DNA of 64,000 nt. Source: Cloacibacillus porcorum. GTDB taxonomy: Bacteria > Synergistota > Synergistia > Synergistales > Synergistaceae. The DNA lies in the NCBI RefSeq assembly GCF_001701045.1, contig NZ_CP016757.1, positions 3,064,219-3,128,218 on the forward strand. The letters run 5' to 3'. Under the pieces are notes generated by a model. It was not told the DNA's origin. It ran no database searches and worked only from the letters and a program-made list of their open reading frames with translations. The position numbers and the translations under genes were made by a program. This document shows positions 18,713 to 23,803 of the stretch, in pieces. Every line of letters starts with the position of its first letter. Position 1 is the first letter of the stretch.

Positions 18713-21346
18713 TTACCTCCTGCGTCTCGCCGCCGCGAGCGGCAGCAGCGCCAGCAGTGCTAAGACTCCCACACCCGCGGAGCAGCCGCTGCTTGAACCG
18801 CCGGAGGGTTTCGGCGCCTTTGCCTCGTTCATCGCCATCGCCACGGGGTCGATTACGCTGCCCGTAGTGTTGTCGTAGTCGAACTCTCCGTTATCCTTGA
18901 CGAAGAGTATGAGCGTGTATGTCTCGGTCGGATCGATTTTGTCGGTAAAGGCAAGATTGTTTCCATCCGCGTTTTTGAGCGTGAAGCTCTGGTCGGCGTA
19001 GCCGGCCGGCTCCGCCGTATAGCCGAACTTCGCGCCCGTCTCGTCTTTAAGTATTTTGATGAGCGTGATGTCGCTGACTATATTGTTGGCCGCCGCGCCA
19101 AGCTGCGCGCCGGTCGTCTTCATCGCGAGGGCCGCGACTTTACCGCTGTCGATCGTCGCCGTGATAATGGGCAGAGTTACGATCGTCTTCGGAGCCACCG
19201 CCGCGTCGTCCGACATTACGGAGGCCACGGTCTTCTTGGCGATCACGGGGTCGACTGTGATATTGCCGTCGGCCGTCGCGGTGAAGAATTTTACCGGAAC
19301 GTCCGCGCTCGCCGCGAGGGCTTTTGTGTTTTCCTCCGTCGCCGGCTTGATGACGGGGGTCGCCGGTTTCACATCTGCCGGTACGTCTTTGTCCTTAGTC
19401 ACGGGGTTATCCTTTTCAGTTATGACGGTCGGCGTTACGGGAGCCGGCGTCGGCACCGGGTCCGGAGCCGCCGGGTCTTCGACAGTCACGGTGCAGCCGG
19501 CGGTCGTCTTTGTGACGGAGCCGGTGGCGGAGATAACGGCGATGCCGGCCTTGTGTGCCGTCACCTTGCCTGCGTCATCGACCGCAGCAACCGCAGTGTC
19601 ACTGGATTTCCAGGAGACAGTTTCACCGACGACAGGTGTCGCCGCCTTCACGGTATCGCTCTTTCCGAGTTGAAGTTTCAAAGCAGTTGGCGTTACGGCG
19701 ATAGGGGCATTCTTACATGTGACGACTAGTTCCGTCTTCGCCTCGTTGAATGCGGCGGAGACTATGCCCGTGGCTTCGCTGTAGTCAACCGTAACATCCT
19801 GCTCTACCGCTTTCGTGAAGGTGAGAGCCGAAGGCGTTCCGAGATTCGTCCAGTTGCCCGTCAGTTTGATGACCGTCGCCCCGCCGAGGTCCGCAAGTTT
19901 CAGCTTCGTGCCGCTGGTAAGCTCGATACGGTCCATCTCCACTATCGTCGCGCCGGAGAAGTCCGCCTGGACGTTGTCGAATACGAGGACGGAGTCGCCG
20001 GAGACGGAGTCGGTGTAATCTATGGTATCGGCGGCAATTATCTTGTCATAAATGGCACCGGTTGTACTTGTGCTATTGACGCCCTGTCCCGTTATCGTTC
20101 CCTTAAAAACACCATCTTTGATATCGGAGAAGATCACCGTGGCGTTTCCGTATACGGCGGCGCTGGCGTCATTGTTACGTTTGCCGCCGGCGATTATCCA
20201 GACATCCTCTGTCAGCGCCTTCAGGCCGCTGTTACCTTTGACTGTGATCCTCGCATCGCCTTCGACGTCCGCCTTACCTCCAACACGTCCCAGACCGCCG
20301 CCGACCAACGTATCAATGCCGCGGCCGCCATTAACCACAACAGAGGTGCTGCCCTTGACGACGGCGCTGCCGCCACCCCGGCTGACACCGCCGCCGCCGA
20401 GGTAGGGGCTGAAGGAACTGAAGTCAGCGCTTGTGACCTCTATGTAGACGTCCTTCGAAACGACAGCATTGGCATTGCTCCCCCAGTTCGAAGGGCCGGC
20501 TGTAGCTGCGCCGATTTTCCCCTGCCGCAGATATACCTCTACGCTTCCGGTCTCCGCGTAAGTGTGACCGCTGTTTGCCACTGAGTTGTTGCCGCCCCAT
20601 ATCTGCTCGACCCGCGCGTTTGGATTATCGATTATCAGCGTGGCCTTGCCCTTTAAGATACCGCTGGCAGTTTCGCCGTTTTCAAATCCATTGGCGACTA
20701 TATGCAGGCCGCCGTTGGCGCCAAAGCTGTCGTCATCCGCGCAGGAGACATTGATTTCCACAGTGCTGTCGCCCTCAACGGTAAGGTCGCCTGATTTGTC
20801 TATCATCGCCGCGCCGCTGGCTTTCAGGTATCTAGATTTTCCCCAGAGTGCTCCGTTGATCGTCAGTTTGGTATTTCCCTTAACGGCGCCGCCGTTCGGG
20901 CTGCCCGCCAGGATTATCGACTGCTGATAGTTTGGTATACCACCATCCGCGTAAAGGCTTGAACCGTCGGCGGCGTTGACCGTCAGGCTGGAATCGCCGG
21001 AAACATTCCCACCGTCGCCGCCGGCGAAGAACTGCACTTTATTTTGGGTCCACAGATTCGCCCGCCAATCCACGGTAAGCGAAGAATCCCCCGTGACGTC
21101 GCCGCTCGCTCCATAGATAAAAATTTCCTTGTTAGATAACGCAGACTCTTCGCCCTCTGTTCCCGTAAAGGTGATCGTGTTGCTTCCGTTCGCAGAGGGG
21201 GACAAGACACTGCCGGATTCTATACTACCCAATTCTATTCTGTCGCCGCTATCATAGGATACACCGGCCGCCCACGCCGTTCCCAACATCGCGGCGGCCG
21301 CCACAAACGCTAACACCAGCTTGCATTTTCCCTGCAACTTTATCAT
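18713..21346 (-). CDS. Large SYNERG-CTERM surface protein with Ig-like (Big_2) domain
   Basis: 877 residues. Signal peptide at 1-26 (ending AWA). Residues ~30-460 carry repeated GDSSLTV/VSGDSSLTVN/KGNTKLTIN-type beta-strand units, like autotransporter or pectin-lyase beta-helix passengers. A bacterial Ig-like group 2 domain occupies about 550-640 (VSWKSSDTAVAAVDDAGKVTAHKAG), followed by a Pro-rich linker (PDPVPTPAPVTP) and a beta-rich region. The C-terminus is SSSGCSAGVGVLALLAL plus a basic tail, the SYNERG-CTERM sorting signal of Synergistota, implying cleavage and surface attachment. It is likely an adhesin or matrix protein. Its leader carries a c-di-GMP riboswitch and a variable promoter. 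Confidence 0.85.
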   Translation of the reverse strand: MIKLQGKCKLVLAFVAAAAMLGTAWAAGVSYDSGDRIELGSIESGSVLSPSANGSNTITFTGTEGEESALSNKEIFIYGASGDVTGDSSLTVDWRANLWTQNKVQFFAGGDGGNVSGDSSLTVNAADGSSLYADGGIPNYQQSIILAGSPNGGAVKGNTKLTINGALWGKSRYLKASGAAMIDKSGDLTVEGDSTVEINVSCADDDSFGANGGLHIVANGFENGETASGILKGKATLIIDNPNARVEQIWGGNNSVANSGHTYAETGSVEVYLRQGKIGAATAGPSNWGSNANAVVSKDVYIEVTSADFSSFSPYLGGGGVSRGGGSAVVKGSTSVVVNGGRGIDTLVGGGLGRVGGKADVEGDARITVKGNSGLKALTEDVWIIAGGKRNNDASAAVYGNATVIFSDIKDGVFKGTITGQGVNSTSTTGAIYDKIIAADTIDYTDSVSGDSVLVFDNVQADFSGATIVEMDRIELTSGTKLKLADLGGATVIKLTGNWTNLGTPSALTFTKAVEQDVTVDYSEATGIVSAAFNEAKTELVVTCKNAPIAVTPTALKLQLGKSDTVKAATPVVGETVSWKSSDTAVAAVDDAGKVTAHKAGIAVISATGSVTKTTAGCTVTVEDPAAPDPVPTPAPVTPTVITEKDNPVTKDKDVPADVKPATPVIKPATEENTKALAASADVPVKFFTATADGNITVDPVIAKKTVASVMSDDAAVAPKTIVTLPIITATIDSGKVAALAMKTTGAQLGAAANNIVSDITLIKILKDETGAKFGYTAEPAGYADQSFTLKNADGNNLAFTDKIDPTETYTLILFVKDNGEFDYDNTTGSVIDPVAMAMNEAKAPKPSGGSSSGCSAGVGVLALLALLPLAAARRRR

Positions 21347-21584
21347 TCAGCACACCAGACCTTTCACCCCAAATAAAAATAATAAAAAAATAACCTCACG
21401 CAATAAGAGTATCTTCCATTTTTGTGGTTTTATAGATCACTCTCCCATCCAATTTCCAGCCCCAGACCAACGCGCGTTCGCACAGATACAGAGGATATGA
21501 AGATCCCCTTCGCAGCTCTTTATATTGCGTCTTACTCAGTTCATTGACAGGCCAGCCGCCGAATAGGCGGATATGAATGAATGC

Positions 21585-21660
21585 GGTAATCGGCGACCGG
21601 CTGTCATAACTTTCGTCTTAGACCCTTAGCTTTCCGGCGCTGTCTTTCGACAGCTGTGGC
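21585..21660 (-). promoter_or_regulatory. c-di-GMP-I (GEMM) riboswitch aptamer
   Basis: On the minus strand the RNA shows the class I c-di-GMP order: a hairpin GCTGTC-GAAA-GACAGC (21639-21654) whose GAAA tetraloop matches the tertiary-contact loop, then GCCGGAAAGCTAAGGGTCTAA (split as GCCGGAAAGC and TAAGGGTCTAA), a short GAAA-capped stem, and ATGACAGCC-GGTCGCCG. This parallels the class consensus of (A)CGCAAAGC, GGGTCTAA, ATGGCAGCC and GGGTTGCC. It begins about 20 bases after the predicted transcription start and lies about 240 bases upstream of the surface protein start. A hairpin CCGCC-TATTC-GGCGG follows (near 21557-21571), possibly part of the expression platform. Confidence 0.8.
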
Positions 21661-21687
21661 TTTTTTATAACGATTAACATTGAATGA

Positions 21688-21715
21688 ATTTTACATCACC
21701 CCCCCCCCAAGTCAA
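21688..21715 (-). promoter_or_regulatory. Promoter with ten-G tract in the spacer (likely phase-variable)
   Basis: The minus strand reads TTGACT (21715-21710), a 16-base spacer T-G10-TGATG, then TAAAAT (21693-21688). The G10 run (C run at 21699-21708 on the plus strand) therefore sits exactly between the -35 and -10 boxes. Gain of one G would give the optimal 17-base spacing; loss would give 15. Transcription would begin near 21681, just ahead of the riboswitch. Confidence 0.75.
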
Positions 21716-21822: not shown

Positions 21823-21949
21823 AAATCGGCGTTTATAAGCACGATTTGCGTCATAAAATGGGGGCTCCGAATCCTCACCGTATGAAGATACGGTTCCGGT
21901 ATCGGAGCCCCCATTTTATTTAGCAACTCGCACTTCTAAACGCCGATTT
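21823..21949. repeat. Large palindromic repeat, family A copy 2
   Basis: Outer arms AAATCGGCGTTTA/TAAACGCCGATTT match copy 1. The inner perfect 18-bp stem (21853-21870 with 21902-21919, ATAAAATGGGGGCTCCGA) and the tip CCGTAT-GAAG-ATACGG are unrelated in sequence to the inner stems of copies 1 and 3. It lies between the surface-protein promoter and copy 3. Confidence 0.85.
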
Positions 21950-22050
21950 AGCAAAGATTTTGGCTCCCTCTGTGAGGCGGCCAGGGAGCCTTTAAGGGCA
22001 AAGTCAAAAGAAAAGCTAAATCGCTATTTACCGCTTTCCCTATCCGAAGG
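21950..22050. repeat. Decayed partial copy of the family B element
   Basis: AGCAAAGATTTTGGCTCCCT, GAGGCGGCCAGGGAGCC and GGGCAAAGTCAAAAG correspond to parts of the left half of the element at 18250-18551, and AAATCGCTATTTA resembles its outer end in inverted order. It links copies 2 and 3 of family A. Confidence 0.6.
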
Positions 22051-22176
22051 AAATCGGCGTTTAGACGTGCGAATAACGAAATAACTGAGGGCTTGGCAAG
22101 CGGAGGCGCACTAAAGTGCGGTGAGCATTGCCAAGCCCTCAGTTATGAAGTTAGTCGTGCGTCTAAACGCCGATTT
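22051..22176. repeat. Large palindromic repeat, family A copy 3
   Basis: Outer arms AAATCGGCGTTTAGACG at 22051-22067 and their complement ending at 22176. The inner 19-bp stem ATAACTGAGGGCTTGGCAA pairs with its complement (22126-22145 region), and the tip is GCGCAC-TAAA-GTGCG. One base separates it from the stop codon of the aspartate decarboxylase gene on the minus strand, so the hairpin forms right at the end of that mRNA. Confidence 0.9.
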
Positions 22177-22177
22177 A

Positions 22178-23803
22178 TTAGGCTTTCTTGTACTGCGAAT
22201 AATACTCGTCGAGGATCGTCACCAGGTCGTGGCCGATCTCGCGGTAGGCGTGATCGGGAAGGTTCGCCATTGAGACGCGCACGGACCAGCCGGGAGCGTC
22301 GAAACCCTCTCCGGGCAGCAGCACCACATTGGGGTTTTCTGCGAGGCGGAAGAGGATGTCGATCGGCTCGAAATTTTTCTGCAGCCAATCCGCGAAATCA
22401 TCGCCATATTTTTCCTTCGCCCAGAGCGAAACATCGAGCAGCTGGTAATAGGCGGAGCTGTTCGGAGAGAGGGGCCGCGGCCATTTGAGGTTGCCCCAGA
22501 AGTCCCTGTAGCGGCGGCGGACGATATCTTTCGTCAGCCGGTTGTAGGCGCCCGCCTTATCGATCAGCGCGCAGAGGGCGAAGAGAGCCATCTGCACCTG
22601 CTGCGGCACCGAGAGTCCCGCAGTGTGGTTCAGCGCGATGTCGCGGCTGTCGGCGACCATACGGTCAATAAATTTTATCGCCTCCGGATCGACGGCGAGC
22701 TCGGAATAGAGCTTCGCCGTCTTTATCCGCTGCGCCGCAGGCATGGCCGCGATCATATCGTCGAAGACGTTCTTGCGGTGGACGCCGATGACTCCAAGCC
22801 GCCAGCCCGTACAGCCGAAATATTTAGAGAAGGAGTAGGAGCAGATGGTGTTATAGGGTATAGTGTCGAAAAGAGAGTGATAGTTATCGGCAAAGCTGGA
22901 ATAGACGTCGTCTGAGACGATCATCAGCTGCGGGTTTTTCGACGCGACGATATTTTTTATCTTCTGCGCCGACTCCGGCGATATCTCCACGGAGCCGGGG
23001 TTGCTGGGGTTGACGATGAAAAAGACCTTCACCTTCGGGTCGGCGAGCTTTTCAAGCTCTTTGTCCGAATACTGCCACGAATGGCGCGGCTCGCCGTCCA
23101 CGAGTTCGGTGCCGTCGGCATAGACCTGCACCGTCTTGAGCGCATACCACGGCAGATCGGGGATCTCTATATAGGGGGTAAAGATGGGCGTACCCAGCGC
23201 GATGGTGTCTCCCTGTTTCAGCAGGCCGTTGTTGAGCAGCGAGCGGAAGATGTAGACCATCGCCGCCGTCGCCCCCTCCGTCGCGAAGAGGTCGAAATCC
23301 TGATTCTGTCTGTTTCCCTGCTCAAGCTCCTCGATAATGTATTCGCGCACCACTCCCTCGCAGCAGGGCATCATCCTGTCGGGCGTCGGGTAATGGCCGC
23401 CCAGAATGCCGTCGCAGAGCTCAAAGGCCCACTCGTCGGCGTCGAAGCCGAGGATGTTGAGGCCATACTGGAAGGAACGCCGCAGGAAGTCGGCGCCCGG
23501 CAACATGGAGTTGACACCGAGCCAATTGGCGAAGCGCGCGCCGATCCCCTCCTTCTCCGGCAGTCCAGCGAGGATGCCGTCGTCCCAAACGCGGCGGCTC
23601 TCGGTCATCGCGAAGCGGCCAAGGGTGAAAAAGGCCTCGCGCGCATCCGTCGCAATCCAGTTCGGATTGCCGCGCCCCGCGTTGAGCATCGCGGAAGATG
23701 TCGCGCGGGCATGCTTTGACGCCATATCGATAAGGACGTTTTTCACTTCAAAGGGACTTAGTTTTTCATAGGCTTTTTCCTGTTTTCTTGTCGGCATATC
23801 CAT
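22178..23803 (-). CDS. asdA: Bifunctional aspartate aminotransferase / L-aspartate 4-decarboxylase
   Basis: 541-residue PLP enzyme of the AsdA type. It removes the beta-carboxyl of aspartate to give alanine and CO2, consuming a cytoplasmic proton. It shows the AsdA N-terminal GRGNPNW, the FFIVNPSNPGS substrate loop near residue 262, and the PLP lysine K327 in SYSFSKYFG followed by the GWRLGVIG motif. It diverges from gadB. Together with gadB and gadC it suits acid tolerance or a decarboxylation-driven proton gradient; the usual AspT exchanger is not in the window. A family A palindrome abuts its stop. Confidence 0.92.
   Translation of the reverse strand: MDMPTRKQEKAYEKLSPFEVKNVLIDMASKHARATSSAMLNAGRGNPNWIATDAREAFFTLGRFAMTESRRVWDDGILAGLPEKEGIGARFANWLGVNSMLPGADFLRRSFQYGLNILGFDADEWAFELCDGILGGHYPTPDRMMPCCEGVVREYIIEELEQGNRQNQDFDLFATEGATAAMVYIFRSLLNNGLLKQGDTIALGTPIFTPYIEIPDLPWYALKTVQVYADGTELVDGEPRHSWQYSDKELEKLADPKVKVFFIVNPSNPGSVEISPESAQKIKNIVASKNPQLMIVSDDVYSSFADNYHSLFDTIPYNTICSYSFSKYFGCTGWRLGVIGVHRKNVFDDMIAAMPAAQRIKTAKLYSELAVDPEAIKFIDRMVADSRDIALNHTAGLSVPQQVQMALFALCALIDKAGAYNRLTKDIVRRRYRDFWGNLKWPRPLSPNSSAYYQLLDVSLWAKEKYGDDFADWLQKNFEPIDILFRLAENPNVVLLPGEGFDAPGWSVRVSMANLPDHAYREIGHDLVTILDEYYSQYKKA

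Follow-up and report, generated by a model that had tools for sequence, protein, structure and literature searches.

Introduction

Phase variation of surface genes by poly-G or poly-C tracts, placed in promoters or at gene starts, is familiar from Neisseria, Campylobacter and Helicobacter. Control by c-di-GMP riboswitches is a second theme in the expression of surface proteins. In Vibrio cholerae, the class I riboswitch Vc1 occupies a 225-nt leader before gbpA, where c-di-GMP raises a secreted surface-colonisation factor (PMC4744006). Clostridioides difficile carries class II ON switches before the adhesins CD2831 and CD3246 and a class I OFF switch before flgB (PMC11477304), and its cmrRST locus combines a c-di-GMP riboswitch with invertible DNA (PMC6837544).

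Here we describe a locus of the Synergistota bacterium Cloacibacillus porcorum, contained in a 64,000-nt stretch of DNA (the window), in which a c-di-GMP-I aptamer lies in the leader of a gene for a SYNERG-CTERM surface protein. We consider it likely that this is a real class I c-di-GMP riboswitch that controls the surface-protein gene, with competing helices in its leader and a G-run in its promoter. Like Vc1, the aptamer belongs to class I and sits in the long leader of a surface factor gene, but the target protein is unrelated to that of gbpA, and the available parts of the Vc1 account (PMC4744006) make no mention of a G-run promoter. In C. difficile, as far as the excerpted descriptions go, c-di-GMP riboswitches set surface adhesins and motility; a surface-protein gene follows the aptamer here as well, whereas the adhesin switches there are class II and the window switch is class I. 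As at cmrRST, a single transcript would answer to a c-di-GMP riboswitch as well as to phase variation, the latter by DNA inversion there and by candidate slippage of a G-run in the promoter spacer here. The tracts of Neisseria, Campylobacter and Helicobacter, by contrast, apparently act without riboswitch coupling in the accounts at hand (PMC6321876, PMC5084427, PMC2823697).

The RNA class, a class I switch that raises a surface factor, c-di-GMP switches at adhesins, and the combination of riboswitch and phase variation are therefore already known. New are the phylum, the SYNERG-CTERM targets, the G-run promoter before the aptamer and the terminator-less overlapping helix, and the setting of this known riboswitch class is uncommon. 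Searches of the open-licence PMC literature returned nothing for 'Synerg-CTERM' and loosely related work only for c-di-GMP riboswitches in Synergistetes. In a phylum that has been little studied, the locus would connect c-di-GMP signalling with SYNERG-CTERM surface proteins.

A full-length class I aptamer before a surface-protein gene

The original prediction, made from the DNA letters, was of a c-di-GMP-I riboswitch in the leader of a SYNERG-CTERM adhesin-like gene, and the covariance search bears it out. With cmscan, RF01051 (c-di-GMP-I) matches the minus strand at 21670-21589 with 66 bits against a gathering score of 35 (E 1.1e-10) and covers model positions 1-87 of 87. Apart from this match, one tRNA is the sole Rfam hit at gathering score in the window, and the same family search found RF01051 in none of 14 control genomes. 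The predicted elements, GCTGTC-GAAA-GACAGC, GGAAAGC, GGGTCTAA, ATGACAGCC and GGTCGCC, are all present in order on the minus strand. In the cmscan alignment the first hairpin of the aptamer reads GCUGUC-GAAA-GACAGC, which places the GAAA tetraloop there, and the P1 pair that is G12-C37 in the Rfam consensus is C-G, with pairing preserved.

Model position 11, which we take to be G20 of Vc2, is a G; the column taken as that of A47 holds an A, and the 3′ strand, with the position taken as C92, contains CC. G20, A47 and C92 are named as ligand contacts of class I aptamers in the available text of PMC4744006. Every feature tested marks this RNA as a typical c-di-GMP-I riboswitch, and ligand binding is predicted from its sequence. 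Class I variants with A20 sense 3′,3′-cGAMP in other systems, but it is highly improbable that the window aptamer senses this or another cyclic dinucleotide, given the G at its G20-equivalent and the abundance of GGDEF and EAL genes in the genome. The c-di-GMP signalling that had been implied for the lineage is likewise borne out by gene content: 23 GGDEF matches, all above cut-off, and 13 EAL matches, 12 of them above cut-off, with enzyme activity predicted.

On the minus strand, the promoter is followed after 17 nt by the aptamer and, a further 242 nt downstream, by the ATG of the surface-protein gene at 21346 (Table 1). The span originally proposed for the riboswitch, 21347-21681, corresponds to the entire leader: it begins beside the ATG and stops just before the promoter.

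Table 1. Features of the riboswitch locus (window coordinates)
Feature	Coordinates	Strand	Basis
Sigma-70-like promoter, TTGACT-16 nt-TAAAAT	21688..21715	minus	10/12 consensus matches
Ten-G run in promoter spacer, candidate slippage (phase-variation) tract	21699..21708	minus	sequence
c-di-GMP-I (GEMM-I) aptamer	21589..21670	minus	RF01051, 66 bits, full length
5′ strand of alternative helix = aptamer 3′ strand, GACAGCCGGUCGCCG	21591..21605	minus	pairs with 21561-21546
3′ strand of alternative helix, CGGCGGCUGGCCUGUC, without U-tract after it	21546..21561	minus	duplex, ensemble pairing
Rest of long leader, including open frame P0002	21347..21545	minus	P0002 not judged a gene
877-aa SYNERG-CTERM surface protein	18713..21346	minus	profile matches, homologues

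The gene behind the aptamer encodes a protein with a hydrophobic N-terminus, a repetitive region, one Big_2 domain (residues 548-619, 25.8 bits) and a SYNERG-CTERM tail. The tail, part of the original claim, is secured by TIGR04564, which scores 35.8 bits over residues 851-877 against a curated cut-off of 22.5. Intimin is a weak phmmer match (E 0.0097, residues 575-620), and together with Big_2 it makes the label 'adhesin-like' plausible at the level of sequence. A single-sequence structure model (mean pLDDT 41.9) was too poor for use.

Homologues of the 877-aa protein occur in 25 of 52 family genomes. The orthologue of a sister species (G001:C1:2830769; 63% identity over residues 2-624) also follows a c-di-GMP-I aptamer, as its first large ORF. 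When we took the best five matches to the N-terminal half (the window copy, a second copy in the same genome that we call paralogue B, G001:C1:2830769, G021:C2:2296 and G021:C8:74887), all five lay in aptamer-led transcripts, G021:C2:2296 as the second ORF behind its aptamer. A further paralogue of this genome, G000:C1:2914521, is 70% identical over residues 318-877 but lacks any aptamer match, and we count this against the riboswitch reading.

Paralogue B lies 52 kb from the window copy and is disrupted twice. Its aptamer is interrupted by a 1,429-bp insertion sequence (IS) that has rve-type integrase domains and an apparent 5-bp repeat, AAAGC, on both flanks. Its gene carries a frameshift, the window protein being matched in two frames over residues 1-525 and 534-877.

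Predicted competition between the aptamer and a downstream helix

The last 15 paired nucleotides of the aptamer region (21605-21591) are complementary to 21561-21546, forming a duplex of -32.0 kcal/mol. This helix, the strongest among the 80 leaders tested, was not equalled when the downstream stretch was dinucleotide-shuffled 200 times, and its pairing probability in the free ensemble is about 1.0. The leader of paralogue B retains it at -25.8 kcal/mol: the two leaders differ at nine positions over 278 nt, and the four differences that fall within the helix are all compatible with pairing. Competition between the aptamer and the alternative helix is, from these predicted structures, well supported.

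Forcing the aptamer makes the leader fold 13-16 kcal/mol less stable than the unconstrained fold, so the ligand would need to act during transcription. We propose that c-di-GMP would bind the aptamer while the leader is being synthesized and let it keep its own 3′ strand; without ligand, that strand would be drawn into pairing with a segment lying 28-43 nt further downstream, and expression would drop. Behind the window helix there is no U-tract, so the leader does not class as a terminating (ON) class I switch. On the minus strand between 21300 and 22200, a consensus scan detected no intrinsic terminator, and a folding scan yielded a single terminator candidate, long and weakly convincing. 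Candidates for the output step behind the helix are Rho, RNA stability and translation.

The serpin leaders of the same genome give a hint as to the direction of control. Secreted serpin-like genes with c-di-GMP-I aptamers are found at G000:C1:374978-379910 (L035), with homologues in genomes G020 and G021 (L038, L044). In five of the family's six serpin leaders, both of this genome included, a helix overlapping the aptamer runs into a U-tract; the sixth has a truncated aptamer. In these leaders the ligand should prevent termination, making them ON switches, and c-di-GMP may thus also turn on secreted protease inhibitors. Serpin and window leaders both use the aptamer's 3′ strand as the 5′ arm of the second helix, although the U-tract of the former is missing from the latter. 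Because of this shared overlapping-helix design, with a U-tract in the serpin leaders, we lean, by analogy, towards c-di-GMP turning the 877-aa protein gene ON.

Direct control of the ribosome-binding site was tried as an output step and set aside, as nine fold lengths gave no stable answer: access to the ribosome-binding site and AUG in the bound and free states was contradictory across lengths and depended on how much coding sequence was included. The same folds bear on the opposite direction, in which c-di-GMP would turn the gene OFF, either because the freed segment or refolded leader hides the start codon or because termination follows. With the aptamer forced, AUG access drops clearly in seven of the nine lengths, for instance from 0.65 to 0.22 when the fold takes in 60 nt of the coding region. 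The two longest folds show a rise or almost no change, though long-range folds are unreliable. In both sister-species leaders the terminator lies beyond the aptamer and does not overlap it, and class I switches of C. difficile are OFF in the portions of PMC11477304 available. The window leader, however, follows the overlapping design of the serpin type, unlike the sister species, and we regard OFF control as rather unlikely.

We think it still less probable, though worth weighing, that an intact aptamer has become uncoupled, a terminator-type ON switch having lost its U-tract and with it control by c-di-GMP. The window helix does lack a U-tract, and decay is visible at other loci of the genome. 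One serpin aptamer, at 376478 (31.9 bits), is missing a portion of its 5′ half while its terminator remains; with the IS-split aptamer of paralogue B, this leaves two of the genome's four aptamer loci intact. There is also precedent in Bc1, a class I aptamer that binds yet does not regulate in response, according to the accessible part of PMC11218506. Against this, the window copy retains both aptamer and helix, and the substitutions between copies preserve the helix. Natural test pairs exist in this genome: in paralogous leaders an IS-split aptamer can be set against an intact one, and among the serpin leaders a broken aptamer against an intact one.

The remainder of the leader contains P0002, a frame open over 73 codons in both copies and 93% identical between them. 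We rejected it as a gene: no ATG, GTG or TTG lies near its 5′ end, and four synonymous against five non-synonymous differences give no sign of protein selection. It has no match in Pfam or NCBIfam and is absent from every other genome of 60. On these grounds it is barely credible that the true first target is a small protein or leader peptide encoded by P0002, as the open frame shared by the two copies might suggest.

A G-run promoter and homopolymers across the genome

In the promoter upstream of the aptamer, TTGACT (21715-21710) and TAAAAT (21693-21688) enclose a spacer of T, ten Gs and TGATG. A long homopolymer between -35 and -10, here ten Gs in a 16-nt spacer, is one feature expected of a simple-sequence phase-variable promoter. 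Paralogue B has a promoter of the same type with nine Gs at the equivalent place and a 15-nt spacer, so that the run differs in length, 10 against 9, between two paralogues of a single genome. A third promoter of this type, with seven Gs, lies in the same genome, 387 nt from the start of another SYNERG-CTERM gene's ORF, and the three together provide a natural series of 10, 9 and 7 Gs in one promoter type. A pattern search of the 52 family genomes returned four matches at three places in this genome and one each in three others. Those three look like chance: one precedes a rubrerythrin-like gene, and the other two fall within or next to long open frames (names given by eye).

By analogy with slippage in other bacteria, the spacer G-run probably adds random switching of promoter strength. 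The surface protein may then be set by signalling and by chance alike.

G-runs also cluster near other genes of this kind. Runs of nine or more Gs, counted on either strand, number 18 in the genome, and seven of them fall in the interval from -500 to +300 around the 5′ terminus of SYNERG-CTERM ORFs, for which we used 46 of 52 listed rows and excluded the six weakest (13.0 bits or less). Random placement of 18 runs gave a mean of 0.19 and a maximum of 3 in 20,000 trials. Paralogue B would be an eighth case, missed because its frame is broken. This association and that between IS copies and G-runs described below were spotted post hoc, and their chance figures are descriptive. As a tentative and on balance doubtful extension, the SYNERG-CTERM repertoire may be switched randomly by G- and C-runs at 5′ ends; the window locus would add a second, deterministic layer, its slippery promoter deciding whether a transcript is made and its terminator-less c-di-GMP riboswitch whether that transcript is used. 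IS insertion just downstream of G-runs would then edit this set of proteins, the split aptamer of paralogue B being an example.

Several further features were recorded alongside. Twelve copies of the IS are present (G000:C1:3033643-3032215, L034, and 11 others, L136-L147). Five of the 12 begin 23-96 nt beyond a stretch of at least nine Gs, always on the G strand, against a post hoc chance expectation of about 0.003; our literature search found no described preference of an IS for target sites near G-runs. Several ORFs of the SYNERG-CTERM or signal-peptide-like kind have a run of nine or ten Cs at their start or close to it, in a manner resembling translational phase variation (G000:C1 46715, 489109, 583808, 1429295, 1531456, 3251112 and others; L047-L071). 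In the two leaders of the sister species (G001:C1:2830278 and 2834854; L036), C-runs of 8 and 10 stand in matching positions, past a terminator and 114 nt downstream of the aptamer. Between the surface-protein promoter and the neighbouring gene, window positions 21830-22180 contain, by eye, long inverted repeats and repeated AAATCGGCGTTTA-like stretches.

Aptamer-led genes in the phylum

Under stricter filters, RF01051 is present in 23 of 185 genomes of the phylum. The census began with 84 aptamer rows, of which 81 were used; two IS-split halves, read by hand, and the sub-cut-off G042:C8:269121 were omitted. Among the ORFs that begin no more than 900 nt from an aptamer, the longest was taken as its target, a rule by which some picks may be wrong frames. 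Two of the 81 aptamers had no ORF and the remainder led to 70 distinct ORFs. All 70 entered the tail count and 68 the family scan (one with undetermined residues and one at a truncated contig end were dropped), while the helix test above covered 80 of the 81 leaders, one having too little downstream sequence.

By a simple tail pattern, 19 of the 70 aptamer-led ORFs end in a SYNERG-type tail. These ends are confined to two families, with 7 of 16 in f1 and 12 of 27 in f8, and none among the 27 ORFs of the other four. The family scan of 68 ORFs found 11 with TIGR04564 at E <= 0.001, 6 serpins, 7 C45/AAT hydrolases, 4 with an MCP signalling domain and 3 with a GGDEF domain. Many other aptamer leaders of the phylum have a terminator downstream of the aptamer that does not overlap it.

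Tandem pairs of c-di-GMP-I aptamers precede C45/AAT-family hydrolase genes in families f7 and f10 (L108, L112, L115, L123, L124, L126, L127). Three class I aptamers have an A at the position taken as the G20-equivalent (G042:C4:227961 and 234426, L099; and L096), and two of them lead SYNERG-type genes. In G020:C24 (L037), a gene recognized by eye as GGDEF is led by a c-di-GMP-I aptamer behind a promoter-like TTTACA-16-TAAAAT with eight Gs, and feedback is possible.
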